A DNA stretch of 64,000 bases from Branchiostoma floridae. Lineage: Eukaryota; Chordata; Leptocardii; Amphioxiformes; Branchiostomatidae. The position numbers were made by a program, and so were the translations under genes. Positions 9,901 through 55,032 of the stretch are shown here, one piece after another. Location of the stretch: positions 2,102,647-2,166,646 of the forward strand of contig NC_049996.1 in assembly GCF_000003815.2 (NCBI RefSeq), written 5' to 3'. The notes beneath the pieces are model-generated. The model did no database searches, was not told the DNA's origin, and saw only the letters and a list, made by a program, of their open reading frames with translations. How positions within the stretch are numbered: the stretch's first letter is position 1; each line of letters begins with the position of its first letter.

Positions 9901-11809
9901 AAGCGATTGGTATCTATTAAGAAAGTCTGCACAAACATTAATATTTTGGAGTTGTCTGCAGAGGACAGAAAAGAAGATCCATTTAAAAGCAATTGTATCA
10001 AATTGTCGTCGGATAGATTGGTAATTTCAAACTGTAACAGATTGAAAATATCGAAGCCACCTTCTTTCGACTTGAAATCCCTAAATTACAAGTTTTGAAA
10101 AACAACGGATAAAGGTTACCTCGTGAAATAGTGAACTAGCGTTAGATCCTGCATTATGGTAAAACGGCATGTTAATCGGGTATCTTACAGGACTGCGCCA
10201 AATTACGCCAGCCATTCTTAAAGTGGGCGCAAACCGCCACAAAATACAGCGCAGTCCAAAGACACCTAATTTGAAAGGATCTAATGGCTATTATTCATCA
10301 CAAAATTCTTGTGTATGCAAATGTTTACCTTTGTTTACCTGTGATTTGGTTCAGGACCTAGTTACTCAAACTAGATGTATTGATACAGATTATTTCCTAC
10401 AACGAGTACACCCATCCCTGGGGCGCATTACACCCTGTGAACAAGACTAAATCCGCCTATTACGACTTGCAAGTAAGTCCTTCCTTCATCGTATGGTAAA
10501 ATCTTTTGTCTGGAAAACTTTCTCTTGCTTTACAAGCACTTAAGATAAATCTCATTGTTTTATTTGTACGAAGTAACAAATATTACCATTATTCCTTCGA
10601 TATCACAAACTCATGTTGCATTTTTAATATACGTTATACTTTATTAAGTGCCGATGACAGTTGATATTTTTTATATTTTAATATTTCTAGGGAAATTTGT
10701 GCGATCAGCAGTTCCTCCACTTCGCCCATAACTTGGACTGGCCCACCTCAAACCCACCAAACTTCAAGTATCATGGCCACCATAACAGGTCACGTGACAG
10801 TATCCCAGGATACATCCCGCTCGGGGAATGGCGGGATACCATCAACGTCCCTCCCCTGGGGAGCATGACCATTCGCTTTGTAGCAGATAGGTGACGATTA
10901 GTCTCTTATTATTGTTGATTGGTAATATCTATGTTATTGTAACAATGCTTTATACGTTTGGGACCGCATGTTTAACATTGAAGCAGCGACACCTAGCTGT
11001 AGTGCGAAGTACTACCAATCATTATTGCCTTGAGGAAGGTGACAGACAATCACTGAAACGTCGTCTGTTGTTGTGGATACAAAACCTTGTTATCCAAGAT
11101 CTGTAATATCCGCATGTGTTTTAAGCACGTACCGTAGTGTTTTTATAGTCCACACAAACAAGTTGCTATTAAATAACACATGTAGCCTAATACAGCGATT
11201 ATTACACAATATACATACTGTCTAGTATAAAAGCAACAACCAACCGTCGCCGATATTTTTTATAGATTTTCTTGTTATTGTTCTTTGAAGAGATTCATTA
11301 GTCACGTATGTGCACAGTTTAAAGGTGAACACACGAACCCCAAAATTTTTGGAACCTTCTCAAGTCCTACTTACCCCTACTCCGCAAGAAAGCGGGGTTA
11401 AGAGGCAGAAGATCCACGCAAGTCTCGACCTAGTCTTGCACTCTCGCGAGACTAGATCACTCCGTGAACAAGATGGACTGATAGCCATCGAAAATTTGGA
11501 GGTATGTGTGTTTATCTTTAAAAAGTAGTCACTGTTTACTGTTTGATGAAAATTCGATTTACTTGGTGTTATTGTCTTTTTAGATTCACGGGAACACAGA
11601 TGATCCACTGTCACAACCTGAACCATGTAGATAGAGGGATGGGCCTGGTGGTGGAGGTGGTGGAGCAGGGGGAGTCGACCCACGGGGCCCACACGGCGTC
11701 CGGCGGGGCCTACCCCGGGACGTGCCGGCGGACTGACCCGTATCCTGACGTGGTCACCGGCGTTAGTACTACGAACGTTAACGTGGGAAGCCACGAGCAT
11801 GGTCACTAA
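931..11809 (+). CDS. Laccase-like multicopper oxidase, secreted, 14 exons
   Basis: Exons: 931-1036, 2161-2348, 3152-3283, 5477-5581, 6047-6249, 6580-6668, 7279-7377, 7785-7921, 8109-8205, 8774-8976, 9447-9515, 10389-10472, 10691-10890, 11584-11809. Phases join throughout to 1938 nt (645 codons plus stop). The N-terminus is a hydrophobic signal peptide (MVVRHLTTLLLCVILGLPEA). Copper motifs are in family order: HLHGMH (H124, H126), YYHHHIHG (H167, H169), HPLHIHVNHF (about 466-471) and HCHNLNHVDRGM (H579-C580-H581, H585, axial M590). Three cupredoxin domains lie at roughly 45-195, 210-340 and 440-620. Laccase-type oxidases oxidise phenols or metal ions at the T1 copper and reduce O2 to water at the trinuclear site; the natural substrate is not evident. 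Oddity: exon 2 carries an in-frame TAG at 2214-2216 (codon 54), either an assembly error, a null allele or a recent nonsense mutation. Otherwise the gene looks fully constrained. Confidence 0.9.
1786..1851. repeat. Perfect inverted repeat (hairpin) in intron 1 of the oxidase
   Basis: A 26-bp arm at 1786-1811 is matched exactly by its reverse complement at 1826-1851, with a 14-nt loop. The arm begins ACCAAGGGGGTTGTACCC. The perfect match suggests a recent foldback or snapback duplication. Confidence 0.85.
1898..2190 (+). repeat. Tandem duplication containing the exon 2 splice acceptor
   Basis: Two diverged copies, 1898-2055 and 2056 to about 2190, each start GCGACTTTCAACGA.ACAGCAGCAG and run through CTTCCTACATAG|GTGGACAAGACC, the acceptor and first codons of oxidase exon 2. 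The acceptor of copy 1 is at 2019/2020 and that of copy 2 at 2160/2161. Copy 1 has an extra T that gives an immediate stop, so only the second acceptor keeps the reading frame. Confidence 0.8.
2571..3034. mobile_element. TA-flanked MITE with CAGTCAAACCTGCCC inverted termini, 464 bp
   Basis: The left end CAGTCAAACCTGCCC (2571) is matched by GGGCAGGTTTGACTG at the right end (3034), with TA on both sides, as for Tc1/mariner/pogo-type insertion. There is no transposase reading frame. The interior repeats the words 'cgaccacct' and 'tcagcgaccacct'. Two relatives lie at 23203-23603 and 45024-45108. The copy sits in intron 2 of the oxidase. Confidence 0.85.
3490..3722. repeat. Imperfect (TG)n microsatellite
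   Basis: TG-rich simple sequence in intron 3 of the oxidase. It produces long low-complexity reading frames on both strands that are not genes. Confidence 0.8.
4400..4500. repeat. Dispersed repeat fragment (retroelement 3'-end-like)
   Basis: The string 'gcagcgacacctag' followed by 'tgctttgaggaaaatgtcagtcaccgaaacg' recurs at 10955-11065. The 'gcgacaccta' part also recurs near 44390, and on both flanks of the mucin B tail region (about 54795 and 54930). The 'ttgaggaaggtg...gaaacgt' signature resembles 3' ends of LINE- or Penelope-type elements, but no coding sequence is left, so the family is uncertain. Confidence 0.45.
4814..5190. mobile_element. MITE with TACACCTTTCTCACGCGGCGGCC termini, 377 bp
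   Basis: About 30 bp of terminal inverted repeat: the left end reads TACACCTTTCTCACGCGGCG and the right end is its complement ending GCGTGAGAAAGGTGTA. There is no coding capacity. A near full-length sibling lies at 18930-19328 and a worn partial copy at 8533-8690. It is in intron 3 of the oxidase. Confidence 0.8.
7500..7705. repeat. Dispersed repeat shared with 25105-25230
   Basis: Words 'aacagaagcgaagtagag', 'ctacagtcgaactta' and 'gttgtttacatgaagat' occur in the same order and spacing in both places. The copy lies in intron 7 of the oxidase; the other is in the spacer downstream of alpha-dioxygenase A. No open frame is conserved between the copies. Confidence 0.5.
8533..8690. mobile_element. 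Degraded copy of the 377-bp MITE family
   Basis: It retains the right-hand end of the element at 4814-5190 (…CATTGGCCTCG.TTTCAATCTATCATGG.CGCC..TTGAGAAAG.TGTA) and 'agtcccatagtc', but has lost the left terminus. It lies directly upstream of oxidase exon 10. Confidence 0.6.
11395..11530. repeat. Dispersed repeat shared with 57028-57150
   Basis: Both copies contain 'ccacgcaagtct', 'ctctcgcgaga', 'ctccgtga.caagatggactg' and 'atagccatcgaaaatttgga' in order, followed by 'tttaaa/taa...agtcact'. The type is unknown, possibly a LINE 3' end. This copy is in the last intron of the oxidase and the other in an intron of mucin B. Confidence 0.5.
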
Positions 11810-12844: not shown

Positions 12845-15800
12845 TTAGATGTCCAGCTCTTCCACGATGATCCTGGAGTAGGAGTTATACCCCGTGGAGG
12901 CTGATCCTTCGGGAAGTCCGTCTGCTGCGCATGTGCCGATGTTGAGGGTCACGGTCATGTTGCCTGCTGGCAGGCCGTAGCACAAGCCGTCAACTAGGGT
13001 AAACGAAATCAGCACATTTTACAATAAGTTTTTAAAATTGTGAGTTTCGCAAATGATTTTGCCATTCTTTGCCCTTAAAGGTATGGCTTTAATTACAGCA
13101 AGGCCTGATTTTGCTTCTTTTCAATTGCACACCCCATTTGCCAGCGTATTTCGTGCAATTATCCGGATGGTGCAATAATGCGGAGTTATCCAGCTGGTTT
13201 GGGATTTTGGGGTTCCGTACGGTTATCCGTTGTGCAATTCAATGGCTTATACTGTTTTAGAATTAAGTGAAAAATTAAGAACAACAGAAAATCAGTTGTC
13301 AGATATTCTGTGGCGCCTCAATAGTTAAACTAAGGGATATACAATGTATTAGATGAGAAGCTTGCCCACTTACTTGTGGACACGCGGTGGTTGTTGGGGT
13401 GGTTGTTGGGGTCGAACATGAACATGATGCCGTCGATGGGAGCGGGGTCGCTGCACTCAGCTCCGTTAAGGGTGAAGAACCAACGCTTGCATACGGCGGT
13501 CCTGGTGACTTCGTTCCAGACTCTGAGGGCGCCATTCCACGTCACACGCAGGGCAGATGTTGAGGACAACTTATTGAACGGACACTCCTGTGGGATCGAA
13601 AACATAAACTTTATCCTGTCGTTTTGTACGCAATGTCATGCAGTCTCTTTGTCTAGGGGAAGCTCTTTGAGTTCCATTACTTCATGCCACTAACTAATGG
13701 TGTTAAAATTTTCGATCTATTGGTATCTATTGTTGCAATGATAAACAAAGGTGAATAATGTAACTTAGCCCGTAACAAGAGTTCGTAGACCTCATATCTC
13801 CATGAAATAGTCTGATTATGTAAATGACTTACACATTTGCATAATCTATGCTAAGTTATGTACACCTGTAAGTAACCCACGCTGGTTACTATGTTGATTG
13901 TCCAAGCATTTACCACATCGATGAATTATGGCACTTTTGCATTAATTATGCAAATTAAGGACTTATTTGCATATTAGGTATCTGATAATGTTCCACCTGC
14001 CCCAAACTACATATATTGCACGTATCTGAGTTCTGTAAAGGAAACACTGCAAATACAGATTTTCCTCATTAAATATGCAAATTAAGAGTCAATTTGCATA
14101 ATTTGCATTTCATGATGTACATCTCTGTCTAAGCTACCTACATACCAAATATCATGTAAGTTTGTCATTCCTTCTTCAGTTATCGTCCTTAGAAGATTTT
14201 GACAAAAATGCCCCTGCAGTTCCAGAGCAACCTGCTAGGGGAACCAAATATACACCAGATATCCCTTATGTCACAAGCTATCTGGTATCCAAAAATCAAG
14301 ACCATAGCACATCCAGTTCAAAAGATCAAAAAAATGAATTTCTGCTGCAGTACCAAGGTCACATACCAGGGGGCCCAAAATTGACCTTGACCTTTGTCTT
14401 TCCAACACCTACCAACAAACCAAATATCATTTTAATCCATCCAGAGGTTCTTGAGTTATGCTCACTACAAAATCCGGACACACAGACACACAAACACACA
14501 CACACACACAGACACACCCAAAACTATATCTCCATTTTTCATGGAGATAAGGAGATAATTATGTACTATATATCATTCAAGCTATCTACATACCAAAAGA
14601 TCATGACGATCCGTCAACACCTTATTGAGTTCTTGAATCCTTTTCTTTTACGATATTCTTAACATTCCTTAATTACCATCACATGGTATGGCTGTTCTGG
14701 TTCTGTATATTCTTATAATCAAAGTTATCAAACACATTCATACACAGCTCACCCCTACCCCCACCATACACCCCGCTCGTAGGTTGACATAATCACAAAT
14801 TATACCACAATCGCTCCGGATCCAGCCGCACTGAATAGGTTGTCCCAGGTACACTGCTTCACGTTCCTCGGGGCCGATACATGGATACCAGGAGGTCCCT
14901 GATCCCCTCGGTCTCCCTTCGCTCCGGCACCGCCAGGTGGTCCCAGATCGCCTCGGTCTCCCTTGGCACCATTCCCGCCGGGCGGTCCTAGTTCCCCTCG
15001 GTCTCCCTTCGCACCGTTCCCGCCGGGCGGTCCTAGATCCCCTCGATCTCCCTTCGCACCATTCCCGCCGGGCGGTCCTAGTTCCCCTCGGTCTCCCTTC
15101 GCACCATCATGACCAGGGAAGCCGTGGTTGCCAGGGACGCCGCTGTTGCCAGGGATACCGTTGTTGCCAGGGATGCCAGGTGGACCTTGAGGCCCGGTGA
15201 CGCAGTTGCCACAACACTGTATGAGACGATGAAGGTGATAATATATTCACAGAGCTTGTACACAGCTCATGATACATTTATAGTACAGGACGTAATCGTT
15301 TCCCTATTTGCAACTTGCATGTATTTGAGGATATACCGTTAATTGACATACAAGTAGAGCCTTCATCCAATTGAACACCAATCAGAATGTAGAATGTCTA
15401 CTAACAAACAACAAAAACCAAAAAGTTTCATAGAGCACCAAATGATACAACATTGCCCTCCTGAAATCTAAAGAAATCAAACAAGCCTTACGATCTTGAG
15501 CACAGTTGTACCATGTCAAAGTGCATTTAGTTATACTTCTTGAACACAAGACTAAAAGACTTGTTGGCCGTGAAACCATGATTTTTTGCTCCAGTTCTTG
15601 CTTGTTACAACGCACTTTTGCTGTTCTCACAAGAGCAAGTTAAAATCAAGGCTTCCAACAAATGCACCACATACACAAGTCAGACCTAGATGTAAGAAAT
15701 ACCCTAAACTGTCGGTTTGTACAAACGTCTTGGCTCAGGCTCTTCAGTGTCAAGACTGCTACGACAACAACAGCAACCGCCAACCGCAAGCAAAAGGCCA

Positions 15801-19328: not shown

Positions 19329-20020
19329 TGCCTTCAGGGCGTGTAAGCTGCTCATATCTTTGTTGATCGCTAGTCACATGTAAAAGACCGATCCCATGTG
19401 TAGCCCCACCCAATTACGTCAAAGATCAAAAATGCAAAATTGACACTTAGAAATTCAAACATTTGACGGACATGCAGCCACTCTCTCATTGGTCAAACCG
19501 ATGATAGCCGTTCTCTCATTGGTCGAACTGCTAATTGTTTAAGACAATCAGTATTGGTCTATTCTGTCTTGTGCCAACGGTAAATCTGTTTAGAGATTAC
19601 CAGTCAAGTATGTCATGTAACAAAAATTAACGTGCACGTATAGCCAAACAAAAATAATAGTACCGAAAGATGATTTACTTCTATCAAAATCCAAATCATT
19701 AGTGTACCTTTCGAATCTGTTAAAATAGCTTTTATTTAATTTTGGAGAGGAATAAATTGTGAGCTTATCTTTCAACAAAGGGTTATAATTGCCATTAATA
19801 TTCTTACGATTTGGCTCACTTATATGATTTAATGACTTCTTAATGATAAAAATGTTTCTTGCCCGTACGGAAATTCTACATGAATAACAGTAAATAATAC
19901 TGTACAAAAAGAAATTAAGTATAATGTTACATATAAAAAAATAATGTCATTTATAATTAGATCTACTTGTCATTGACTATTTCCAGACTTCAGCAAATAT
20001 TTGTAAAAAGAATCGGAAGA

Positions 20021-23000
20021 ATGGGGTTTCTTGCATGGTACCAGTTACCAGTGCTGGTGGCCATCGCGTGGCTCGCGTATCAGCGGCAAGTATTGGAGAA
20101 AAGTGCTCTTCACGACACCTACACGACAGACGACGACAAGCCTTCCGTGTCCTGCCCCGACTCGACCCTCCATGCTCGGACGGCAGACGGTAGCTGTAAC
20201 GACTTGGACGACCCGACCATGGGGATGCGCCTCTACCGCTTCGGCAGGAACGCACCCATCGAGAAAACCTTCGTCGACAACAAGAACCTCCTGAAACCGA
20301 ACCCACGACACATCTCCAACAAGTTGTTCAAGAGGGAAGAGTTCACTCCCGCTACCTCTATCAACCTCTTAGCGGCGGCCTGGTTACAGTTTCAAACACA
20401 CGACTGGTTCGATCACGGTCTTAATCAGAGGGACAATCACATCTCTGTTCCCTTGTTCGAAGGCGATGAGTTGCTGAGACGTGGAGTTCATTCGCTGAAA
20501 GTTTTCCGGACTGTTTCTGATCCGTCTCAAATGCAAAAGGACCGCCCGAAAACGTTCCGCAACGCCAACACCCATTGGTGGGACGCCTCGCAACTCTACG
20601 GAAGCGATGCGGAAACCCAACTGGCTCTCCGAGAGATGAAAGACGGCAAGTTGAAGGTCACGTCAAGTGGAATGATACCTCTAGACGAAAAGACGGGCGT
20701 CGAAAAGACCGGATTCTCCAACAACTGGTGGGTGGGGCTCAGCATGCTACACAACCTGTTCACGCGAGAACATAACGTGATCTGTGACGTCATGAAGGCA
20801 AAGTACCCGGATATGACCGACCAAGAACTCTTCGACAAAGCTCGGCTCGTCAATGCTGCTGTGATGTCCAAACTGCACACTGTGGAGTGGACCCCTGCTC
20901 TTCTGTACAACGACATCTTGGATGTGGGAATGAACAGCAACTGGTTCGGACTTTTGTCCCAACTGGGAGGCTTTGGAAACTTCCTTAAACGTATTTTTCC
21001 AGAACACTATATACTGACCGGAATCCCAGGATCCGCCAAGGAACTACACGGCGTGCCGTACTCTCTTACAGAGGAATTCACAGCAGTATATCGCATGCAT
21101 TCTATTCTACCTGACATCATCCACTTGCAAGACATAAAGTCGGCAAAACGTACTGGCGAGACTTACCGCTTGAAAGACACTCTCTTTAGCGATGCATTCA
21201 AAGTTGTGGAGAAACAGGGCATGGAAAACCTCTTCTACCATTCGGCGTGGAGAACCCGGGCGCTCTTGTTCTCCACAACTACCCCAACACCATCCGGGAC
21301 CTGCAGCTTCCCGAGACGCAGAACGCGGAGTATGTGGACATGGCAACGGTGGACGTGCTGAGGGATCGGGAACGTGGCGTGCCGCGCTACAACGAGCTTC
21401 GGCGCCACCTCAACATGGCCCCCGCCGAGACCTTCCGGGACATCACGGACGACCCGAAGGTTGCCGAGGAGCTGGAGGAAATGTACGAAGGAGACGTTGA
21501 AATGGTGCGTGTACACCTGCTTACTACTAAACGTTATAAAAGGGTTGCATAGAAGCACATATTGGGAAGGAAACTCGTCATTTTTTCTGATGCATGGAGT
21601 ACAAACAAAGCAGTCAGAAAAGGATACATTTTTCGGTTCCAAGATGAAAGCAAGTAGAGAGCTAACTGTGCACTATGAATGCCAATAACACACCAGTAAG
21701 TAACACTACTGATATAGAAAACATTATAGGTGTAACGTACCCTCTTCTCAAAGTTAAGGTGGAAGGTCATCATACCTTAAAATTGTTACCCTTTAAAAGT
21801 TGAAGACACATTAAAAGTGTTGCTCCATATTGGACGTTGTGATTAGTTAGCAATTTGTTAGTTACCTTGAAGTTCCTACTTAAGAAGTTTGTTATTTCAT
21901 TTCCGCCCCTCTCCCCCTCCCTCTTCAGGTTGATCTCCTAGTTGGCTGCATGGCGGAGAGTCCTCGCCCCACCGGGTTCGCCTTCAGTGACACAGCCTTC
22001 CGACTCTTTCTCCTGATGGCGACTCGGCGTCTCCAGGCAGATCGCTTCTACACGGACTACTACAATAGGTAAGGTCTATAAGCATGTTCATCGATCCAAA
22101 TTCGCATGCGCATAGACCATGCTTTAAACATGTGGTGATGTATATGGCTTCCGTCGGTTGGTTTGCATACCAATGTTCTGGCGTATTCTGTTTATGCATG
22201 TTAGGGGCATTCACCTTTGACCTGCGCATGCGTAATTGGGTCCGTGAAATGGTCATTTACATCGGTGTGTCCGTCACTATGTTCAAATAACGTTGCATTT
22301 GCATGTCTTAGATTCTTAGCTCAAATGTTTTGGGTGCATCATGAGATCCTACACCCCCCCCCCCCGTGTACACTAAAACACACCCAGTAACTTTCTAGCG
22401 AGGACAGGTCAACGACAATTACTACGGTGTGAATAGCCCGAACGAGTGGCGGGCCATTCCCACTCTGTCTATCATGTAAATATCATAAATACACACCAAG
22501 CAGGCACTGTGCGGGAGTTCACACAAACAGTTGATCTATATAACCTTCTTGTTCTATTCAGAACGGTTTAAAAAGTTTACGTGATGACAAAAAGGTGAAG
22601 AGACTCAGATTGCGACTTCAAATTTTTTAAATGATGGACCTGCAACAATTTTTGTCTCGTATTGTCACGCGCTCCGTCAGTTCAGTTGTATTAGCACAGC
22701 TTTACACATTGTAATGTATCGTGGCGTAGTGGATTAACGAATAGACTTTTTAACTTGTGGTGTCGGGTTCGAATCCAAGTTGGTGTACTTTTGTTTTCGA
22801 TAATATTTCACTATCTATCACTTATACGGTCGTTCATATTGAAATTCATTTCATAATAACCTTCTTGATACTATCTATTTGCGCTATTACAGTGTGCATT
22901 CATTGAAATATATTGAAGCATTGAAGGGATACTGGTAGTTTATTGGTGAAACATTACAGATCTGGCGGTGTAGTTTACAAACCTGTGAAAACGGCGGTGT

Positions 23001-24252
23001 AGTTTACAAATCTGTGAAAACGAAACAAATGGAAGGGAGACCTTGCAGACAATCCCAGTTAAATGGGCATGATATACAGTCTTCATACATACCTTGTAAC
23101 GTTAGTTGTATTTCGAAAATTACACGTAAAAGAATCATGGTACGCAGTACTAGTTCTAACTCAGTACAAGGTAAGAATGCGGCTTTACTGCATTATGAAA
23201 TACAGTCAAACCTGCCCGGGCGACCACCTCTTCTCAGCGACCACCTGGCCATTTCGACCGCTTTTTCTCGGTCCCGCTTTTTTTCCCATTGACGTAAGCA
23301 TTAAACGACCTTTTCTCAACGACCACCTGGCCAACGCGACCGCGACCGCCCAAAATTGGGACATATAACGACCGCGTCATTTTCAACCTTGCGATTTTTG
23401 ATGATAACTAGCACGATTTTGTGCCGAAATTGGCCGGTTTACGTCGGATTGTGACTGCCATTACGATGTTATATTTAGAATAATGCTTGGGGTTAAATTT
23501 ATAACGGGCATCTTTTGAGTCGATACTCTTCACGGCGACCACCTGTCCAAATCGACCGATTTTTTCCGGTCCCCCGGGTGGTCGACTTGGGCAGGTTTGA
23601 CTGTACAACGTTCGACTCCAAATAACTAGCAAACAATTAAAAGAAATCTCGACGAAAAATCGTTTAGGTGTGAACTATTCATCCCTGTCACTCGCGTGCC
23701 ACTAGATCAGTACGTGGTAATTGGGTACTTTGCATGTGAAGGAATTGACTTAAAGGCGTGTCCTCGCTAGAAATTAGAAATCTACTGGTTGTGTTTCAGT
23801 AAGGATCCCCCCCCCCCCCCCCCCTGGGCGTTATGTAAAATTCTTGACATTAAAGAACAGAAGATAAGAAATGCTAATGAAACAAACCGAAGCGATGTTC
23901 GTTTTAACTACTATTCTTTAAAATGTACATAAATCAAAGTGTTTGGCAATGGAGTTTTGTGGTTGGCCACAAGCGTTGAATAGATAAGTATTACTTTCTG
24001 GACAAAGTTTAAGATAAAGTCTGAGGGGCTTCACTTAGTCTTATATCAATTTTCTTTTGAAATATCATTTCACACAGTGATACGTACACTCAAAAAGGTT
24101 TAGACTGGATTGAGAACGCGACGATGTCGTCCATTCTTCTGCGACACTTCCCGAGCCTGGAAGGCGCGCTACGCGGGGTCACCAACGCCTTCCGCCCGTG
24201 GAAACTGCAGCAAGACCCCGCTGACTCGTCTGGACGTGAGGGCGAGCTTTGA
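20021..24252 (+). CDS. alpha-DOX: Alpha-dioxygenase-like haem peroxidase A (frameshifted)
   Basis: Exons: 20021-21504, 21929-22068, 24078-24252. Relative of plant pathogen-inducible alpha-dioxygenases (animal haem-peroxidase superfamily, cyclooxygenase-like fold), which use haem and a tyrosyl radical to add O2 at C2 of fatty acids. Visible: N-terminal membrane-anchor-like segment (about 4-20), distal haem His in FQTHDWFDHG (H127), WWDASQLYGSD, LFTREHN, HTVEWTPALL, and HGVPYSLTEEFTAVYRMH with catalytic-type Tyr357 and proximal His360. Exon 2 gives DLLVGCMAE and FRLFLLMATRRLQADRF; exon 3 gives QKGLDWIENAT and ends EGEL. One base is missing near 21238 relative to copy B (FYTFGVENPG), which breaks the frame about 80 codons before the end of exon 1; the sequence afterwards stays conserved, so this is a very recent lesion or an assembly error. 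Start chosen at 20021 because a conserved acceptor (TTTCCAG, 19985) precedes it in both copies. Confidence 0.87.
22715..22790 (+). repeat. tRNA-derived sequence (SINE head or tRNA fossil)
   Basis: It has an A-box-like TGGCGTAGTGG (about 22722) and a good B-box GGTTCGAATCC (about 22766), but the acceptor and T stems do not pair, so it is not a functional tRNA gene. It sits in intron 2 of alpha-dioxygenase A and is absent from the short intron 2 of copy B. Confidence 0.5.
23203..23603. mobile_element. TA-flanked MITE, 401 bp, CAGTCAAACCTGCCC family
   Basis: Termini CAGTCAAACCTGCCC and GGGCAGGTTTGACTG flanked by TA. The left half closely matches the 464-bp copy at 2571 and the interior is shorter. 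It is inserted in intron 2 of alpha-dioxygenase A and absent from copy B. Confidence 0.85.
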
Positions 24253-26416
24253 TACAAAGATAGTCTTTTGCACAGAATTTGGATTAAGAAGCACCAGCAT
24301 GCACACGATGCATAGAAAATATAACATCACCAGTCATGTTAAAGTCTTTAGAAAAACTCACTTTAAATTTTCCATGATAAAAGATCCTTTTTTTCTTAAG
24401 ATATGAGCTAGACGCCTATATAGGTTGCCCTCTTACAGCATGAATAACACAGTCACCAGTCATACAGTATTCTTAAGAGAATTCGGAATAAATCGCCATC
24501 ACCTTCTTATGGTAAATAGACGTAACTTTATCGGATCACATCTCACAATCTTTGAAATACTATGTTATATTCTGCACCTCTCCATATATGATTTGTATTG
24601 CGGTAGCACGTGCTTGAACAGTGAGGCGATATTCCCTTTAAGCATATTTAAGTTAATTACCTCCATGAAATTTCATGGAGGTTATATTTTCACTAGCATT
24701 TGAGCGTGTGTCTGTGTCTGGACAAGATAACTCAAGAACGGCTGGATGGATTGGTTTCATACTTAGTGTGTTGGTGCAGTGTGATACGATTTGGGCCCCC
24801 TAGCGGCTTCCCTTTGTACTGCATCGCAACTTCCGGTTTTGCTATCTCTTCTGAACAAGCTATGGTCACGATCTTTTTTAGTTAGATGGCTCTCGAGCTC
24901 GGGAAGAAGTGACATGAGTTTTTGCTTCCTAGTCGCTAGTTCTGGGATAGCAGAGGCAATTTTGCAAAAATCATTTGAAGAAGATAACTCTTACTAGTAG
25001 TTACGATTAGGGAATGAAGAGGATAACTCTGGTAGCTACGATTAGATAATGAACATATTATACCGGCAAGCGTTAATGTATTTCGGGGCTTACTGTTCCA
25101 CGGAATCAACAGGAGCGAAGTAGAGGAGAGTTGATAATCATGTTTGCCTGGTTTCCACAGTCAAACTTGGTATAAACTTAGTGTTGTTTACATGAAGATG
25201 AGATTTTAAAACGTCAATGGACGTCGGATACTCTACCAAATAGAATGCTTTGTAGTGATATGAACCGCTATTTTGAGTATCGCCCATTTACAAGTTTTCA
25301 CAGATAGTTACGTCCAGGTTCACGACAGGACCTGTACCTGATCCTAGGTCCTCTAGACCTGGAACGTACCTGTACCTGAATTTTTTGTACCGGTACACAC
25401 CTCTACCGTGCACTAGAAACACTAGATAACAACTCACCGCCCCTTCGGCGTCAAAAGGGCTGTACGGTATATGGTATTACCTTTACAGTCTTGTTTGACA
25501 CCATAATAATTAATATAAAAGACCAATCAACTAATCAATCAGACAAACAGCACAGTACATATAGTCTATACAAACATTCTATGATGATGTCCTAACTTAT
25601 TTACCATGTTGTTATGAAGTAGTTTCGCCCTCTGCTGACTGAAGAGCACGAGAATGACAGTCTTCCATTGCTGACCGGAATCTTGAAAAGTTGATCAAGG
25701 AGAAATCAAATATATGTTATACGTACACCAAATACTTTCCTGTTCACCTTAGTACTAGACAGGAATTTACCGATAGTAAACAAACGCAGCTCTTAAGATT
25801 TGATGAACATGATAATGTATTGATTTGCTCCTTTCTGTTTTATAGTTAGTTGTGTGGAATTGCAAAATATAGTCGAAAATAAAACCGCAAGTCAATTGTA
25901 CCGATAGTAGAACAACGCAGCTCTTACTTTGGTCCGTTTTATTTCTAGTTAAAAAGTGAAATTAGCATGGAGTTGAATATTTCAGTGGAAACTAAAGCCA
26001 CAATTATTGTTTTTAGCTTTGAATGTAACCTAGAATGCAGACTGCTCTATGTCTAGTAGAGGTCGCACAAAGGAAGCTCAATATCGATAATGAGCCTCCT
26101 AGCGACGAGTTGTGGGATTGCAAAATCTTTCACCGACTGACTCTATGCACTGTTTGTGTACAATGCATATCAAAGAAAATGCATTACATGTTTTAACAAT
26201 ATATGATCTCTGAACTAATTAAAATTGATAGATTTATCGCTTTGTCTATTTTTTCAATGTCAGTGTGATAGAAAAATCTCATGTGTTTCAATAATAAATC
26301 GTTTGTGTAGATGCTTTCATTGTTCGAGTTGATTTATTGTTTGAACCTTTATTTAAAATTCTCTTGATTATTTGACTATCATAACAACGTGAAACATGTA
26401 CATTAGCATTTCATTA
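24253..26416. other. Spacer after alpha-dioxygenase A, repeats only
   Basis: The first ~90 bp are homologous (inverted) to the 3' flank of alpha-dioxygenase B. Then follow a palindromic 'CCTCCATGAAATTTCATGGAGG' repeat block (24655-25000), a copy of the 7500-7705 repeat (25105-25230) and the distal part of the left duplication arm (25780-26350). No supported exon. Confidence 0.5.
24655..25000. repeat. Dispersed repeat beginning with a CCTCCATGAAATTTCATGGAGG palindrome
   Basis: The palindrome is followed by a GTGTGTCTGTGTCTGGACAAG stretch, 'ataactcaagaacggctgg' and 'gggccccctagcggc'. A longer, closely similar copy begins at 27853. There is no protein evidence. Confidence 0.6.
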
Positions 26417-29400
26417 CTAAATGTCCATCTCTTCCACGATGATCCTTGAGTAGGAGTTCCACCCCGTGTAGGCGTCTCCGCTCCCGCGGTTCTCCAAGCA
26501 TGGGCCCACGTTTAGGGCCACCGTCACAGGTCCGGCCGGGAGGTTGTAACACAGGCCGTCAACTAGAAAGAGATAGAAAGTAGGGCGTTACCATTAATAA
26601 TTTTTCAGGTTGACAAAAAGTGGCATTTGATGTTTTTTTCTTCTTTTCTGGTCTAAAATCCGGTCCACTGAATTTTTGTATTATGATTCATTCAGACAGG
26701 TCAAATATTGAAAAAAAAAAACGCTGGTTTTCAACCTGTCTATTGGGCCGATACTCACCCCTATCCTTCCTCGTCGACATTTGGTAATATGAAAAAGAAA
26801 ATTTAGGCTACAGCAAGTAAATTTTTTGGATGACATCAGCACGCTCATTGATTTTAGCCTGATGTTTGAAGAAAAAAGAATGATTTCCCCTCCGGAAATA
26901 GTGAACATGACGAGAAAGTAAAAAAGATAAGGAGAATATGATTATCTTCCTTGATTCTACTTGTATGTGGCACTTGCGAGGTACATACAGCTATGGCCGT
27001 AATTGTAAATTAAAGTGAAACGACTAGTAGTAAATTTGATCGTAAAAGTGGCACCAACGTGGTGGTCTTGACTGTAGTTGTTAACTTGGTAAAGTGTACC
27101 ACACTAGTGTCACGTACGCACTTGCACCTTTTGAGTACAGAAAAAAGAATTGTTGGCTGTCATACCAAGTTTTGTCGCTTCAAGTCTTGTTACAAACTTT
27201 AAGTTTATGGTGTCTTTTTTGAAAAACCGACCTTATTGTTTTTTATCCTTCGTTTTTCCCGCCCTCTCGCATTAAATTTGAAGTTAGCAGAGGATGTCAT
27301 TCATAAAATGTACGTGCTGTGGCCTTACTGGTAGTTACACGATGGATGAACATGTTGGCTACGCCGTCTGTGTGCATGATGCCTTCGATGGGAGCTGGAT
27401 CGGTACACTCGGCTCCGTTCATTGTGAAGAACCAACGTTTACACGTGTTCACTCCTAAGATTCTGATATCACCATTCCATGTCAGACGGATGGCAGATGT
27501 CGTGGACACTTGTTGAATGGGCAGTCCTGTTCCAAATGATGAAAAATCGTTTAGTATTAACACCACGAGACGTTTTACCCTATCTCATTAAAGTTGCAAT
27601 CTACAGTGGATACCATACATAACTCTAGTTCCACGAAAACATCCCTTCGACAAATAATCATGCCTTTATTCAAGACTTTTAGGTCTTATTCATGTATTAC
27701 TAAAGAGTACCTACCCCAATAGCAAACGAATGCATGAACATGTGTGCCCCACAAACGCTACCAAAACGCTACAAACTTCTTTTTCTCAGTTACATATGTG
27801 ACAAGTTTGAAAGTCCTATCATTGAATGCAGTGGATTTGTAAACTTTCCTCATTACCTCCATGAAATGTCATGGAGGTTATATTTTACCCTGCGTTTGTG
27901 TGTCTGTCTGTGTGTTTGTGTGTGTGTGTGTGTGTAAACAAGATAACTCAAGAACGGCTGGGTGGATTGCTTTCATACTTGGTGTGTTGGTAGTGTGTGA
28001 TGAAAGCTGGAAAAGATTAGATTTTGGGCCCCCTAGCGGCTCCCCTTGGTACTGCAGCGCAACTTCTGGTTTTGCTATCTCGGTGTTCTGAACATGCTAT
28101 GGTCACGATTTTTGAGTATTAGATAGCTGTTGTGCTCAGGAAGAAATGACATAAGTTTGGGCCCCCTAGCGTTTGGTTTTGGGATAGCAGGGGCATTTTT
28201 GTTAAAAACTTCTGAAGACGATAACTCAAGAAGGGAACAACGGATTTTCATGATTTTTGGTATGTAGGTACCTTAGACAATGTTGTACAAGATAAAATAC
28301 TAATTATGCAAAATAGGAGTACATTTGCATAATTAATGAGAATATTCTATCATAGCAGTTTTTTCAATGTATCTCTTGTTCCAGACATGCTATGGTCTTG
28401 ACATTTAGGTGGTAGATAGCTTTTAGTGCCATAACAAAGTGGGGCAAGTTTCAGCCCTCTAACATTTAATTGTGAAACTGCAGGATCGTTTTTGTCAAGA
28501 CACTCCAAAGAGGATAACTGCAGCAAGGAATGACGGATTGCCTGCATTTTAGGCATGCAGGTAGCTTAGGCAAAGATGTTCATAATGATATACATGTTAT
28601 GCAAATGAGAACTTAATTTGCATTATTAATGAGAAAATTATATAATTCCATTGTTTTTAATAACTGGACTTAAACAAATGTAGAACTTGTTAATTATGAT
28701 AGGTGGAATGTAAACAGATACCAAATATGGTAATGAGGAACTTATTTGCATAATTTATGTAAAAATTGCAAAACCGCTTTATGATTAATAATGGCAATTT
28801 TATCATTGTGACATGTGTACGTTATTCAATTATGAACACCATGCATAAATTATGTTAATGTGTTAGTCAATTGCATGAAATTTACGAAAGCTCTAAATTT
28901 TCATGGAGGTATGAGGTCGCCGAACTCTAGTTAATTATGTAAATTTGCTGTTAATTTGCATAATAAGCATCCCACTTTGTAAGACTTCACTTAGGCTATC
29001 TAAATACCAAATCCATCAACATGTTCATGTTTTCACATTAATTATGTAAATGAGCTCGTCATTTGCATAATTAATATGTATTGGGCATTCTCTTTCTCAG
29101 CTACATATGTGACAAGTTTGAATGGAATTCAGTGGATTTATGAACTTGCCTTATTAATTATGCAAATTAGCTGTCGATTTACATAATTAGTATTACTTTT
29201 TGTAAGTCATCACTTAGGCTATCTACCTCTCAACGACCACAGCATGTTCAGAACACGAGATTAAAATTAAAGTTTTGCTGCAGTATCTTAGGGAGCCGCT
29301 AGGGATCCCATTATCGAACTTGACCTTCGTTTTCCTGACCCCTAGCCACCTACTAAATATTATCAGGATCCATTCAAGGATTCTCGAGTTATGCTGTTCA

Positions 29401-31927
29401 CAAGAAAGCGGACGCACACATTCGGCCCGCTATCGTCCTGACGGAAAAAGGCTACGACAACCGTTTCGAACACGACCTTCCTTTCCGCAATCGCTACTCA
29501 AATACCAAATATCATTAAAATCCATACACAGCTTCTTGAGTTATAGGCTGTTGACCTACATATAGGGACACAAGATGAGGCCTTAACCGAAAATATAACC
29601 TTCTCGGTGAAGGTAAAAATTAGTTGCTGTGGCCTAACATATAAAGGGAAATAATTTTCTCAAATACATACCACAATCTTCCCGAAGTCCGCGTCATTGT
29701 TCAAGCTGCTCCAGGTACACTGTTGGACGTTCCTTCTGGCCGTGGTCACTGTGCCAGGTGCTCCCGGCTCTCCTTGGTCTCCCTTGGCTCCGTCACGACC
29801 ATGGTTGCCAGGGACGCCGTGGTTGCCAGGGATACCGTTGTTACCAGGGATGCCAGGGGGACCTTGGGGCCCGGTAACGCAGCTGCCACAACACTGGGTC
29901 GTGAAAAACGGGAAAACTGGCTGGGTTTACTCACTAGATCCTGGAGTGTTCTATTTACACACGGGGCCACGAAGTGACCACAGAAAAACGTGACTTGGCC
30001 CTCCTGCTGAGTGACTAGATTAATTTATAAGCAGTTTTATACGCAGTTCTTTTTTCTAGCTTTTCTTGGCGTCTAAACAAAACAAATTATATGTACAAAA
30101 AAAAATTCACCGGATAACTCAGGAGTGTCGTGAAAACTGTATGTGAATTGGGCCGGTGTGACAGCGATCTCGCCCCCCCGGGGGCGAAATCACTAGCGAT
30201 CTCGCCCTCCCCGGCTAGTGATCTCGCCCCCCTACCTCGCCCCCCTTTAGCGATTTCGCCCCCCCCCAAAAAAACGGGTTTACATGACATTTTAGAAGTT
30301 GATTGGTATAAATCACAAAATGCAGTTTCAGAATGATATAAGTACACGAGTTTGATACATAACTCCATTCATAGTATCAATATTAACGTAATACATGGTA
30401 ATAAGATAGTTGAACATGTTTCAGACAAGGAGGGTTGGGTCCCTTGTATTCCAATTATTGCATATACCTGAGTCTTGACATAAGATGTATTTCATTGTAT
30501 TCACCTGTCCTCAATCAACCTATATATCTCCAATATGAAGTCTCTATCATGAAGTGACCACAAAATAACCATGTAATGTCTTTATTAATTATGCAAATAT
30601 TAGGTATTAATTAGAATAATGCACATTTTGGTATATGCACCTGGCCAAGGGATATCTTCACCTCCAACATGACTGTTTTTTCTAGTATTTAGGAACTGAT
30701 GCATTTACCCGTGTTTCTTAAGACTGGTACTTTACCAGTGTTTGTGTAGCATTTAGCAACAGCTATATCAACTTGCGCGTAGATAGTGTTTATAATGAGA
30801 AACCATCATTCACGTGTGTTTTTGTTAGTGCTTTGGAAATGTTTCCAGCACAAGAAAGAAAACACTGTGACAAATTGAAAACATATAGCTGACGTATTCC
30901 GTACCATAGACGGTGTTGATTTATACGTTCGCAGTAGCACTGTTTTTATGCCACCTCAGCTGCAAAAATTGTCTTTTTCATTTCAATGTTATGTTTGCAC
31001 CGAACAATATAGTATCGACTTTCGAGGTATGACATCTTACGGTACGGTAATAAGGTGCCATATAGGTACCAGGTAACACACCATATACGTTACTCCCCAG
31101 GTGCAGTATAGTGCCAGGTAGCGCACCTGTAATATGTAATAACCAGCTGCTTTGGGGGGGGGGGGGGGCGAAAACCCTAAAGGGGGCGAAAACGCTAGTG
31201 ATCTCGCCCCCCGGGGGGGCGAGATCACAGGGGGGGGCGAGATCGCTGTCACACCGGCCCAAGTCAACACCGGGAAAGGGTAGTTGGTGTACATAGTCGA
31301 GTCAATTCAGCTAGTCCGAAAATGTGTGTGTAAACACAACCGTTGAGTTTATTCCACAATTAACTTTTCAACTTAGATTCATGGTCTATGTTGCAAATCT
31401 GCAACGTTTTGTAGAGAAAGGTATAGATTTTACCGTCTACTATTTGCCTAAGTTTTAACTATGCACGCGAAACGATTAATCAAGTACAACACTTTGAGGC
31501 AGTTATATGTAAGATCGGTAGTTAAATCAAGGGTCAACTAGTCAGGCAACATCTTTGGAAAACTGTAGAATGTTTTCCCTCTAGCCTTGTGTCAAGCGAC
31601 GACTCGCCTACAATACTATACGATTAGGCTCACCCAAAGTACTGTGTGCGAGTGAAAAAAGGACTATAAATTGGGTATCTGAGTTGCCTGACATGATAGC
31701 CAGCCCAGGTAGCCAGGCCCGGTGCACAGCACCGCATTTTCCGTACATCCTTTCTGCTAGGAGGAAGAAAGAAAAAGAGCACACTAGTTTTCCCAAAACC
31801 CACGTACACCCCCTCCCCTATTTGCATGTCCACTTACCTGATGATCTTGAACACTTTGGCTGTGACTTGTGTGTGTGAACGTAACAGCGACAAGGACCAA
31901 AACAACCAGCCACGAGCAAGAAGCCAT
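26417..31927 (-). CDS. CTHRC1: CTHRC1-like secreted collagen-repeat protein B (frameshifted)
   Basis: Minus-strand exons: 31838-31927 (signal peptide [17 protein letters not shown]), 29672-29893 (CCGSC then Gly-X-Y, ending QQCTWSSL...FGKIV), 27329-27526 (C-terminal domain with [32 protein letters not shown]), 26417-26562 ([28 protein letters not shown], stop). Exon phases equal those of CTHRC1-like A. Near 27505, after DCPFNK, one T present in gene A is missing, giving a frameshift and early stop; without it the protein would be 218 aa. The lesion is isolated in an otherwise conserved domain. The collagen stretch is shorter (one KGDQGEPG-type unit). The gene lies in the spacer of the inverted duplication, and its first intron holds the 1.1-kb element at 30148-31262. 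Confidence 0.85.
27853..29600. repeat. Nested AT-rich dispersed repeats in intron of CTHRC1-like B
   Basis: Starts with a 'CCTCCATGAAATGTCATGGAGG' palindrome and a (TG)n tract (27897-27935). It continues with 'ataactcaagaacggctgg', several 'gcaaat/atttgcataattaatgag' words and an inverted copy of related sequence near 29200-29420 ('gaacttgaccttcgttttcctgacccctagc'). It appears to be two facing copies of one element. No exon is seen. Confidence 0.55.
30148..31262. mobile_element. 1.1-kb non-autonomous element with GC-rich terminal inverted repeats
   Basis: Left end TTGGGCCGGTGTGACAGCGA (30148) and right end TCGCTGTCACACCGGCCCAA (31262) are perfect inverted repeats, extended inwards by 'TCTCGCCCCCC'. 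The subterminal zones carry several more GCGATCTCGCCCCC words in both orientations (30163-30265, 31155-31250). The roughly 870-bp middle is AT-rich with no transposase. It sits in the first intron of CTHRC1-like B. Confidence 0.8.
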
Positions 31928-32617
31928 ACCTCCCTTTTAGCGAGTGATCAAACGACTTCTTTACCGACAGACTATACAGTGCATGTGCAACACTACATGT
32001 ATCCTTGTTACCCTGTTGCCATGCAACACCTATATCTTAAGTATGACCCTTAAACCTTGTGTGCCATGATTCAAACAAAGGTTCATGCAAACAATAAATC
32101 AACTGGTACAATGAAAGCATCTACACAAACGATTTATTATTAAGACCTTTCTATAACACTGTCAACACTAAACGAAGTGATAAATCATTTTAGTTGAGAG
32201 TTTATATTGCGAAAACATGTAACGCATCCTCCTTAACATTGTACATAAACAGTGCATCGAGTCGGTCGGTGAAAGATTGTGCATTGCCAAATATAGGACA
32301 GTCTGCATTCAAGGAGCTACCAGCAATTGTGGCATTATTTTTAACTGACTTTTGCAATTTCACACAACTATTACAGACCGGACCAAACCAATACATTATC
32401 ATGCACCTCAAATGTTTAGAGCTGCTTTGCTCTACTATCGGTACTATCGTGGCTTTATTTGTCACAAAATTTTGCAATTCCACGTAACTAACTATGAAAA
32501 AGAACGGACCAAAGCAATACATTATCATGCACATAAATATTAAATAGCTGCTTTGTTCTACTATCGATACTAGGTACGTTATTTACCTCCCTAACCGAAC
32601 AAACGAAGTCAAGTACC

Positions 32618-32715
32618 CCTGGATGTAGTGCAAAATGCATTTCCCAAGGGCACATGATCGGTGACATGTCAGGGGGTTCGAACCCAAAACATCTGGGGTC
32701 TGAGCCAAGTGAACA
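32618..32715 (-). mobile_element. SINE head fragment (tRNA-derived), reverse orientation
   Basis: On the minus strand it shows the B-box GGTTCGAACCC followed by 'tgtcaccgatcatgtgcccttgggaaatgcattt', the same tRNA-to-body junction as the SINEs at 53530 and 57965. Truncated. Confidence 0.6.
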
Positions 32716-33342
32716 CATCCCCGAAAATTATTCCTTAACAATCAAATACATGTAAAATAAACAATTGATGAGAAATATTGATGTGAATGGGGATTATCAA
32801 TGAAAATTACCTTGCAGTTGTTCAACATATAGACAATTTAAAAATGGCTTATCCTTTAGTTTTCACTTGTAGCAACCAGACCATTGTCACACTTCAATCA
32901 ATAGAATACTGGAGACTACGTGCAAAGCAGTACAATGGCACACAACAGCAAAGTAATGCACTTAAGAAATGTGACTTAAACGGAATATCACACATCACAC
33001 TGGTCAAACTGGTGCTACCGCAATACAAATCATATATGAAAATGGTAATGATATAAGATAGTCTTTTAAACATTGTGAGATACGATCCGATACAGCCATG
33101 TCAATTTATGATAGGAGAGTGAAGGCGAATTAAGTAGGAGTTTTTATTAAAATAGTGTATGGCTGGTGACTGTGTCACCTCTGCTGTAAGAGTACATTCT
33201 GTAGAAGACTAAGACATATTTTACGAAAGGAAGATAGTTTATTATTAAGAACAATTTTAAGTTAGTTATCTTTGCCATGTATGGATCGTGTGAATCCTGG
33301 TGTTGCTTAAATCAAATTCTGTGAAAAAGGAATGTCTTTAGA

Positions 33343-36000
33343 TCAAAGCTCGCCCTCACGTCCAGCCGAGTCAGCGGGCTCTTGCTGCAGTTTCCACGGG
33401 CGGAAGGCGTTGGTGACCCCGCGTAGCGCGCCTTCCAGGCTCGGGAAGTATCGCAGAAGAACGGACGACATCGTCGCGTTCTCAACCCAGTCTAAACCTT
33501 CCTGAGTGTAGGTAGCACTGTATGAAAAAAAAAATGATTTAAAAAATGATATAAGCCTAAGTGAAGCACGTAAGACTTTATCGTAAACTTTGTTTCAAAG
33601 TGCATACTTATTAAATCACAGATATCTATTAAATCACAGATATTCAAATACAACATAATTTGAATATAGCGACGGACGCACCAATCACGTCACATAAATG
33701 AACATTTCACGGATCTAACTACGCATGCGAAGGTGAATGCCCCTAACACATAAACAGAACACGTCTGGACATTGTTATGCAAACCAACCGACGTAAGCCA
33801 CATACATCACTACATGTTTAAAGCATGGTCGAGATAGGTCATGAACCTTCACCTTTGACCTGCGCATGCGAAGATGGATCGGTGAGCATGCTTATAGACC
33901 CTACCTGTTGTAGTAGTCCGTGTAGAAGCGATCTGCCTGGAGACGCCGAGTCGCCATCAGGAGAAAGAGTCGGAAGGCTGTGTCACTGAAGGCGAACCCG
34001 GTGGGCCGAGGACTCTCCGCCATGCATCCAACTAGGAGATCAACCTAAAAAGGGAACGTGTGTTTGGGGAGGGGGACGAAAATGAGATATTGCACGTATC
34101 ATTAAATTGCAACAATGACTAACTAGGAACTTCAAGGGTAATAACGAATTGTGAACTGTTCACAACGTCCAGAATTAACTTACCCTTAAAAATGCTTTCT
34201 TTTCACACTTTTAAGTGTAACTCTTTTAAGGTATGATACAAGATCTTCAGTCATTACTTTGAAAAAGGGTATGTTACATCAAAAGTGTCTACTATTTCAG
34301 AGTGTTAGTAGACATTTATAGTGCACAGTTAGCTCTCTACTTGCTTCCATCTTGGAACCAAAAAAATGTATCATTTTCTTACTGCTTTGTTTCTTTTCTA
34401 AGAGTCTTGCAATAGGCAATTATAATCAGAAAGACCTTATGAGTTTCTTTCCCAATATGTGCTTCTATGCTACCCTTTTATAATGTTTGGTAGGAGAGTG
34501 TGCACGCACCATTTCAACGTCTCCTTCGTACATTTCCTCCAGCTCCTCGGCAACCTTCGGGTCGTCCGTAATGTCCCGGAAGGTCTCGGCGGGGGCCATG
34601 TTGAGGTGGCGTCGAAGCTCGTTGTAGCGCGGCACGCCACGTTCCCGATCTCTCAGCACGTCCACCGTTGCCATGTCCACATACTCCGCGTTTTGCGTCT
34701 CGGGAAGCTGCAAGTCCCGGATGGTGTTGGGGTAGTTGTGGAGAACAAGAGCGCCCGGGTTCTCCACGCCGAATGTGTAGAAAAGGTTTTCCATGCCCTG
34801 TTTCTCCACAACTTTGGAAGCTTTACTAAAGAGAATGTCTTTCAATGCATAAGTCTTCCCAGTACGTTTTGCCGACTTTATGTCTTGCAAGTGGATGATG
34901 TCAGGTAGAATAGAATGCATACGATACACTGCAGTGAACTCCTCTGTAAGAGAGTACGGCACGCCGTGTAGGTCCTTGGCGGATCCTGGGATTCCAGTCA
35001 GTACGTAGTTTTCTGGCAAAAATCGTTTAAGGAGGTTTCCAAAGTCTCCCAGTTGGGACAAAAGTCCGAACCAGTTGCTGTTCATTCCAACATCCAAGAT
35101 GTCGTTGTACAGAAGAGCAGGGGTCCACTCCACAGTGTGCAGCTTGGACATCACAGCAGCATTGACGAGCCGAGCTTTGTCGAAGAGTTCTTGGTCAGTC
35201 ATATCCGGGTACTTTGCCTTCATGACGTCACAGATCACGTTATGTTCTCGCGTGAACAAGTTGTGAAGCATGCTGAGCCCCACCCACCAGTTGTTGGAGA
35301 ATCCGGTCTTTTCGACTCCCGTCTTTTTGTCTAGAGGTATCAATCCGCTTGACGTGACCTTCAACTTGCCGTCTTTCATCTCTCGGAGAGCCAGTTGGGT
35401 TTCCGCATCGCTTCCGTAGAGTTGCGAGGCGTCCCACCAATGGGTGTTGGCGTTGCGGAACGTTTTCGGGCGGTCCTTCCGCGTTTGATATGGATCAGAA
35501 ACGGTCCGGAAAACTTTCAGCGAATGGATTCCACGCTTCTGCAACTCATCGCCTCCGAACAAGGGAACAGAGATGTGATTGTCCCTCTGATTGAGACCGT
35601 GATCGAACCAGTCGTGTGTTTGAAACTGTAGCCAGGCCGCCGCTAAGAGGTTGATAGAGGTAGCGGGGATGAACTCTTTCCTCTTGAACAGCTTGTTGGA
35701 GATGTGTCGTGGGTTCGGTTTCAGGAGGTTTATGTTGTCGACGAAGGTTTTCTCGATGGGTGCGTTCCTGCCGAAGCGGTAGAGGCGCATCCCCATGGTC
35801 GGGTCGTCCAGGTCGTTACAGCTACCGTCTGCCGTCCGAGCATGGAGGGTCGAGTCGGGGCAGGTCACGGAAGGCTTAAGCTTGTCGTCGTCTGTCGTGT
35901 AGGTGTCGTGAAGCGCACTTTTCTCCAATACTTGCCGCTGATATGCGAGCCACGCGATGGCAACCAGCACTGGTAACTGGTACCATGCAAGAAACACCAT
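33343..36000 (-). CDS. alpha-DOX: Alpha-dioxygenase-like haem peroxidase B (intact)
   Basis: Minus-strand exons: 34510-36000, 33905-34044, 33343-33517; 1806 nt, 601 aa, fully open. The length fits plant alpha-dioxygenases (about 640 aa). Same motifs as copy A, shifted by two residues: distal His129 (FQTHDWFDHG), LFTREHN, GVPYSLTEEFTAVYRMH with Tyr359 and proximal His362, then MATRRLQADRF and the C-terminal EGLDWVENAT. The hydrophobic N-terminus (MVFLAWYQLPVLVAIAWLAY) suggests a signal anchor. The 1491-nt first exon is uninterrupted, unlike the 65-230 nt exons typical of the neighbouring genes (mucin domains aside). Expected role: oxygenation of fatty acids to 2-hydroperoxides; animal substrate unknown. 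A shared TATTTCCAG acceptor at about 36053 suggests a 5' UTR intron. Confidence 0.92.
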
Positions 36001-36099
36001 TCTTTTAATTCGGGCTGTCAGCAATATTTTTACAGATATTTTTGCTGGAATCTGGAAATAGTCAAGTAGATATGAACTATTATAGAAATGGCAGAGATT

Positions 36100-36420
36100 T
36101 TGCAAATTAGGAGATCATTTGCATAATTAATGAGAATATTCTATCACAGCAGGTTTTTAATGTATCTCTGTCTTGGACATGATACGGTCTTGACATGTAG
36201 GTTGCAGGTAGCAGTCGACGTCAGGACAAGGTGAGACAAGTTTCAATCCCTAACATTGAGGTTTGGAACGGCAGGGGCATTTTGGGACTTAATTTGCATG
36301 GTTAATGAGGCAATCATATACTTTCATTGTTACATATGTAACACATGTAAGGCTTGACTGGAGGAACATAAACATATATCACCATGCAAATGAGGAACTG
36401 AATAAATGCAAAAGCAAACA
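36100..36420. repeat. AT-rich dispersed repeat in the promoter region of alpha-dioxygenase B
   Basis: 'tttgcataattaatgagaatattctatca' and 'gtatctctgtcttggacatg.tacggtcttgacat' match the block at 28320-28420. It is absent at the same place in the left arm, so it is a right-arm insertion next to the 5' end of the gene. Confidence 0.55.
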
Positions 36421-37260
36421 ATTTTTTTTCGCGAAGCGAATCATCTTTCGGTAATTTTCTTTTTGTTTGCCTTTTCTTACTTAATACATGACATACTTGA
36501 TTCATGAGATTAACCAATCTCTAAACAGATTTACCGTTGGCTTGAGACAGAATAGACCAATCCTGACCGTCTAAACCAATTAGTTAAGTTCGACCAATGA
36601 GAAAATGCCAATTATCGGTTGGACCAATGAGAGTGTGGATTCATGTCCGTCAGAAATTTGAATTTTTAAGTGCCTATTTTACATTTCTGTGTTTCAGCGT
36701 AGGTGGGTGGGGGCTATGTGATCGGTCTATTACGTGACGGTAGACTAATTAAGGGTTAATGACCCGCCCCGAGGTGTATATGGTGTCATAACGCCTGGTC
36801 CTTTGCTATAACCATCGAATAAAACCACCGAGTATTGCCCCCCACCCACCCCCCACCCCACACCCCCAATTCGTACTTTGCATTTGAACGAATCGACTTA
36901 AAGGCGTGTCCTCGTTAGCAATCTACTGCTTGTGCTTCAGTAACGAGTCAAACAAGGAGATTTGCCACTGAGTCGAACTTCGGTGGAGCGTACTCCAAGT
37001 CACTCCGAAAAATCGTGTTTAAACCCAGACACTGTACAACAGTTGAACTGTACTCACCTATATTTCTTGGCTAAACAACCGCTGCAGAACCAAATGACCC
37101 TTTTGAAAATTTGGCGTGGCGTCTACAGGAGTGAACTCAGGCTGCAAAACCGGTTAGGCCAATATGTCTGTCTAACCCGCTTCCCTAAGGGTATTCGACG
37201 ACGGGGCCTTGAAAACATTATGTAATGTCTCTACAGTTTTGCAAGAGCTTGCGATATGTA

Positions 37261-54948: not shown

Positions 54949-55032
54949 TTAACGCTTTCCTAACGCATGGACAGATCGGGTGTATGAATTTGCAGGTGCT
55001 ATTCTAACAGGCAGGAGGTAGGGACTGTCTTT
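54670..55032 (-). repeat. Triplicated segment from the cytoplasmic-tail exon of mucin B
   Basis: Copies at about 54670-54743, 54828-54896 and 54949-55032 all read (minus strand) GACAGTCCCTACCTCCTGCC, then ATAGCACC..., then CATGCGTTA. Period is about 125-150 bp with an interspersed 'gcagcgacacctatgctgcag' sequence. Only the copy at 54949-55032 is joined to the TM-encoding part. Confidence 0.75.

Follow-up and report, generated by a model that had tools for sequence, protein, structure and literature searches.

The window analyzed here, a 64,000-nucleotide stretch of Branchiostoma floridae DNA, contains two copies of a gene related to alpha-dioxygenases (alpha-DOX). Its sequence gives good support to an animal alpha-dioxygenase gene at this locus, with one copy intact (copy B) and one frameshifted (copy A). 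Very probably, copy B is an intact animal gene encoding a fatty-acid alpha-dioxygenase that works by the mechanism proposed below, and copy A a frameshifted inverted duplicate. The gene structure, family membership, active-site residues, exon 1 fold and animal context are established for this locus.

Copy B, encoded by the minus strand, consists of three exons. Exon 1 (34510..36000) encodes residues 1-497 and holds H129, H288, T293, Y359 and H362. Exon 2 (33905..34044) holds R531, the equivalent of Arabidopsis R566, and exon 3 (33343..33517) ends in the stop codon. Both introns are GT..AG, and the 601-residue product has no internal stop. The two introns are located at identical positions in copy A. 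A tblastn comparison of the copy B protein with the window, at expectation values (E) up to 1e-3, found these two copies and no third. The DNA of both copies indeed contains the alpha-dioxygenase landmarks that a first-pass annotation had read there. Copy B is an intact gene in animal DNA, with introns and with CTHRC1-like genes as neighbors.

Copy B matches a single Pfam family, animal haem peroxidase (PF03098, 380.6 bits, E 1.5e-113), and no NCBIfam family. Among the 60 of 64 Protein Data Bank matches listed, the Arabidopsis alpha-dioxygenase is at the top (408 bits, E 4e-121), and the two rice alpha-dioxygenase chains score 379 and 377 bits. The next matches are the cyanobacterial peroxidase 8s6c (96 bits) and cyclooxygenases (COX; 68 bits and below). 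The E values for PF03098 and the Arabidopsis enzyme exclude a chance resemblance. The homology to the plant enzymes is near whole-length and stronger than that to COX or peroxidases. The structure model of copy B spans residues 1-497, with R531 outside it. The predicted fold of this exon 1 product is that of an alpha-dioxygenase, and the closest solved fold is a plant alpha-dioxygenase.

To compare individual residues, copy B was aligned with two plant enzymes and 88 bacterial rows. Q125, H129, H288, T293, Y359, H362 and R531 align with Arabidopsis Q159, H163, H318, T323, Y386, H389 and R566, respectively, and each is common to 87 or 88 of the 88 bacterial rows. For Arabidopsis, 12 was subtracted from each chain position, which sets the distal His at H163. 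Numbering of Y386 and H389 agrees with PMC4334559, a passage of which prints His-165 as the distal ligand; passages there and in PMC8720084 cover the roles of the heme histidines and the tyrosine. The distal His (H129), catalytic Tyr (Y359) and proximal His (H362) are kept in copy B, as the first-pass annotation stated, and the same motifs are kept in copy A upstream of its frameshift. We take the His, Thr and Arg at Arabidopsis H318, T323 and R566 to be the substrate site. Arabidopsis D164, T216, W218, D220 and S222, presumably the calcium site, are all kept in copy B as D130, T186, W188, D190 and S192. The pathogen-inducible oxygenase with His-311 and Arg-559 is presumably the rice enzyme. 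These two residues are named in a title in the reference list of PMC8720084. In mouse COX-2 the heme positions are occupied by Q189, H193, Y371 and H374, and V330, V335 and G519 stand where alpha-dioxygenases have His, Thr and Arg.

We propose the following mechanism. Copy B would be a heme enzyme in which the distal H129 and the proximal H362 serve to form a radical on Y359. This radical would remove the alpha-hydrogen of a free fatty acid that H288, T293 and R531 keep in place. Addition of oxygen would produce a 2-hydroperoxy fatty acid, and this would break down into either a 2-hydroxy acid or a fatty aldehyde shortened by one carbon. By analogy, the substrates are likely free medium- to long-chain fatty acids; the cyanobacterial enzymes CalDOX and LepDOX are active on fatty acids of C10-C14, according to PMC8720084. 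We infer the heme binding, reaction, substrate and expression of copy B.

The first-pass annotation described a pair of genes. There are two copies with the same exon structure, but copy A is frameshifted in this assembly. Its exons are located on the plus strand at 20021..21504, 21929..22068 and 24078..24252. Just after 21238, exon 1 lacks a base that copy B has, which puts it out of frame, and the frame from the ATG closes at 21361 after 446 residues. As a result, the MATRRLQADRF and GLDW.ENAT motifs are present, yet out of frame with the N-terminal part. The two copies lie in an inverted segmental duplication. The arm with copy A (19377..24660, plus) is composed of blocks 19377-19681, 19973-22314 and 24002-24660, and the arm with copy B (32953..36736, minus) of blocks 36736-36433, 36065-33632 and 33593-32953. 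The non-coding blocks have diverged between the arms. These are three of nine aligned blocks; the other six, shorter or more distant, may be dispersed repeats.

Over 598 codons, the synonymous divergence (dS) between the copies is 0.116 and the nonsynonymous divergence (dN) 0.026, a dN/dS of 0.22. Downstream of the frameshift, exons 1 and 2 together contribute 134 codons, in which eight synonymous and no nonsynonymous changes separate the copies. This suggests that the break in copy A is probably recent or an error. Exon 3 has diverged more freely, with seven nonsynonymous and two synonymous changes. Copy A is a diverged inverted duplicate, and either a young pseudogene or the product of a sequence error. 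It is quite possible, though somewhat less likely than not, that the frameshift reflects an error in the sequence or assembly and that both copies are functional. The lack of nonsynonymous changes over the 134 codons suits a very recent break or none. However, the base is missing in the assembly as given, the low divergence could also come from gene conversion, and exon 3 does not follow the same pattern.

Several points weigh against the alpha-dioxygenase reading of copy B. The exon 3 changes are one of them. The dN/dS value is pairwise and does not tell which copy is constrained. Conservation of Q125 and H129 in the 80 bacterial genome loci described below is partly built in, since the scan patterns cover both. 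The model loop 350-359, which ends in Y359, has a predicted local distance difference test score (pLDDT) under 50. Relatives with the same motifs may run other reactions. Finally, holding copy B together with COX-2 in a tree costs 2.9 log units and is not rejected by the approximately unbiased (AU) test (p-AU 0.070), a result we hold uninformative because the COX-2 branch is saturated.

Another reading is that copy B keeps the fold with a shifted role, as a peroxidase only or as an enzyme that oxidizes another substrate. The long branch of copy B (0.93 changes per column in a quick tree, 0.84 in a 49-row tree) would fit such a shift, and no functional study of an animal member was found among the open-access papers listed by our searches. 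However, every substrate-site residue is retained, and the dN/dS between the copies is low at the value given above. We consider a shifted role improbable, and a fatty-acid alpha-dioxygenase remains the preferred reading.

It is far less probable that copy B encodes an ordinary animal cyclooxygenase or peroxidase (of the COX, dual oxidase, peroxidasin, myeloperoxidase or lactoperoxidase type) with a few look-alike motifs. The two groups have the Pfam superfamily PF03098 and the heme pocket Q, H, Y and H in common, and the AU test does not reject a grouping with COX-2, although that branch is saturated. Copy B has four cysteines in total, whereas the N-terminal 80 residues of COX-2 alone contain eight. 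Scores, residues and fold agree on the alpha-dioxygenase family rather than COX, dual oxidases or myeloperoxidase and lactoperoxidase, in line with the initial assignment. The tree proposed with that assignment was less decisive. It placed copy B with bacterial alpha-dioxygenase rows, but with about 10 changes per column the COX-2 branch is saturated, so this point relies on scores, residues and fold. COX-2 and 8s6c were tried as an outgroup in the quick tree, where both are on one side of a branch (support 96), their own branch lengths being 10 and 9.4 changes per column. When rows L087 and L088 were added, the COX-2 and L088 branches reached 10 and the outgroup rows were not on one side of any branch. 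In that tree copy B was still with 30 bacterial rows and the plants apart. This outgroup was rejected, as its saturated branches provide no usable root and no clean test of COX.

Relatives were searched for in bacteria, archaea, plasmids and the Protein Data Bank; animal, fungal and moss relatives lie outside this set. The genome loci are the best 80 of at least 531 confirmed candidates in bacterial and archaeal species genomes, ranked by similarity to copy B, and the sample therefore leans towards it. They are 44-50% identical to copy B in the scan, and up to 50.5% in the larger alignment. The two plant enzymes are 40 and 38% identical (38.5 and 37.5% in the larger alignment). The loci belong to Pseudomonadota (33), Cyanobacteriota (30), Acidobacteriota (5), Chloroflexota (4), Actinomycetota (3), Myxococcota (2) and others. 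L018, L052 and L053, in which no single frame spans the whole locus, stayed in the pool and in the quick tree. Most Pseudomonadota relatives (30 of 33) read as 898-921 residues, with about 300 C-terminal residues after the alpha-dioxygenase part; in the one tested, L023, residues 600-907 have no Pfam match.

Among plasmids, 22 records match copy B. The best is from Calothrix sp. PCC 6303, and its protein is 46.3% identical to copy B and 35.8% to Arabidopsis alpha-DOX1. We take PCC 6303 to be the CalDOX strain of Calothrix parietina; the taxonomy consulted does not join the two names. Residues 131 and 361 of the protein are both His. Based on these residue numbers and the assumed strain synonymy, it is very likely CalDOX. 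The heme ligands published for CalDOX are H131 and H361, as given in a passage of PMC8720084. The Calothrix gene (L081) is located on pCAL6303.01, a plasmid typed mobilizable. A GMC oxidoreductase and a patatin-like phospholipase are encoded a few genes away, and the phospholipase could supply fatty acids. For balance, plasmid rows found with a plant query were added (8 of 26 matching records).

By sequence, copy B is nearer to the bacterial enzymes than to those of plants. A column was called diagnostic if the two plant enzymes carry one residue and a different one is common to at least 80% of the bacterial rows. With 86 bacterial rows, copy B is like bacteria in 28 of 33 diagnostic columns, like plants in 3 and like neither in 2. 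With the six plasmid rows from the plant query (L087 and L088 left out), the counts are 25, 7 and 9 of 41. They do not polarize changes, and thus indicate distance rather than descent. In the best trees copy B is on the bacterial side, with weak support: 82 in the Shimodaira-Hasegawa-like approximate likelihood ratio test (SH-aLRT) for the quick tree, 89/82 with 49 rows and 82/82 with 45 rows. The 49-row tree was obtained by thinning 91 rows at 78% identity to 51 and dropping L087 and L088; 45 of its rows make up the 45-row tree, and the trees include no fungal enzyme. The well-supported branch nearest copy B excludes it from a clade bearing the cyanobacteria (44 rows, support 99, in the quick tree; 29 rows, 99/99, in the 49-row tree). 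Copy B is therefore not specifically a cyanobacterial gene. Forcing copy B to group with plants is worse by 14.2 and 2.4 log units in the 49-row and 45-row trees, respectively, but the AU test does not reject this grouping (p-AU 0.096 and 0.143). As a statement of lineage, the label 'plant-type' of the first-pass annotation is unsupported, because the bacterial proteins are nearer in identity and at the 28 of 33 columns, yet the trees do not formally reject a plant grouping.

It is conceivable, but rather unlikely, that a chordate lineage acquired an alpha-dioxygenase from bacteria, gained introns, duplicated the gene and uses it in a fatty-acid alpha-oxidation and oxylipin route (2-hydroperoxides and chain-shortened aldehydes). 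Vertebrates are not known to have such a route. The idea that copy B comes from a bacterial (for example cyanobacterial) contaminant contig has in its favor that the nearest sequences found are bacterial, at the identities above. However, unless the assembly is chimeric, it is refuted by the gene structure, since both copies are interrupted at matching positions by two GT-AG introns. The non-coding DNA of the segmental duplication has diverged between its arms, and copy A is flanked on either side by a CTHRC1-like gene. The idea can practically be dismissed.

The introns in the enzyme gene and the CTHRC1-like genes flanking copy A indicate that the window DNA is animal. These genes combine a collagen repeat with a CTHRC1 C-terminal domain. 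One (26420..29926, minus) is located between copies A and B. A second (12845..15246, minus; low end read by eye) is on the other flank of copy A. A multicopper oxidase C-terminal piece at 11522-11806 (plus; PF07731, 21.1 bits, cut-off 20.4) adjoins the CTHRC1-like gene at 12845..15246. Long Thr/Ser-rich frames of 557 and 954 residues, with a mucin-type look, are found at 49372-51042 and 60460-63321 (both minus). Two short frames at 45449-45742 and 54952-55254 (both minus) contain GWYxGERC followed by a hydrophobic stretch and by eye resemble the EGF-transmembrane tails of membrane mucins. None of these four frames has a Pfam match, nor do two of three further frames in the window.

An alpha-dioxygenase in an animal is not new, contrary to what the first-pass annotation implied. 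Metazoan sequences were reported in 2021 in PMC8720084, where an InterPro survey of about 1400 sequences gave bacterial, fungal and metazoan alpha-DOX clusters in addition to those of plants. In that survey the catalytic Tyr and proximal His are present in all, and the distal His is conserved in part. In PMC12960093, alpha-dioxygenase-2 is listed as one of the proteins enriched in coral planulae. Diatom alpha-DOX-like proteins are discussed in PMC7096440, the moss enzyme is covered in PMC4334559, and COX and fungal dioxygenases in PMC13049297. Among the open-access papers listed by our searches there was no lancelet or amphioxus enzyme of this class, no report on amphioxus with cyclooxygenase and heme peroxidase, and no animal alpha-dioxygenase with measured activity. 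The presence of every tested catalytic residue in an intact copy makes animal use of this lipid oxidation route directly testable. In plants the route feeds defense responses, according to a passage of PMC4334559. The close bacterial relatives bear on how the family arrived in plants, animals and fungi.

Compared with known systems, copy B resembles the plant alpha-dioxygenases, or pathogen-inducible oxygenases (Arabidopsis alpha-DOX1, 4hhr; rice, 4kvj), over nearly the whole length and in all tested catalytic and substrate residues. It differs from them in overall identity (38-40%) and in siding with bacteria at most diagnostic columns. Among the cyanobacterial enzymes (CalDOX, LepDOX and CsDOX), it is 46% identical to the probable CalDOX protein. 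Unlike these, it has an animal host and introns and is located outside the well-supported bacterial clade bearing the cyanobacteria. The metazoan alpha-DOX of PMC8720084 and the coral alpha-dioxygenase-2 of PMC12960093 are of the same family and from animals. COX-1 and COX-2 have the superfamily and the heme pocket in common with copy B. However, COX-2 is 25% identical to it and lacks equivalents of H288, T293 and R531, whereas copy B lacks the EGF-like N-terminus.
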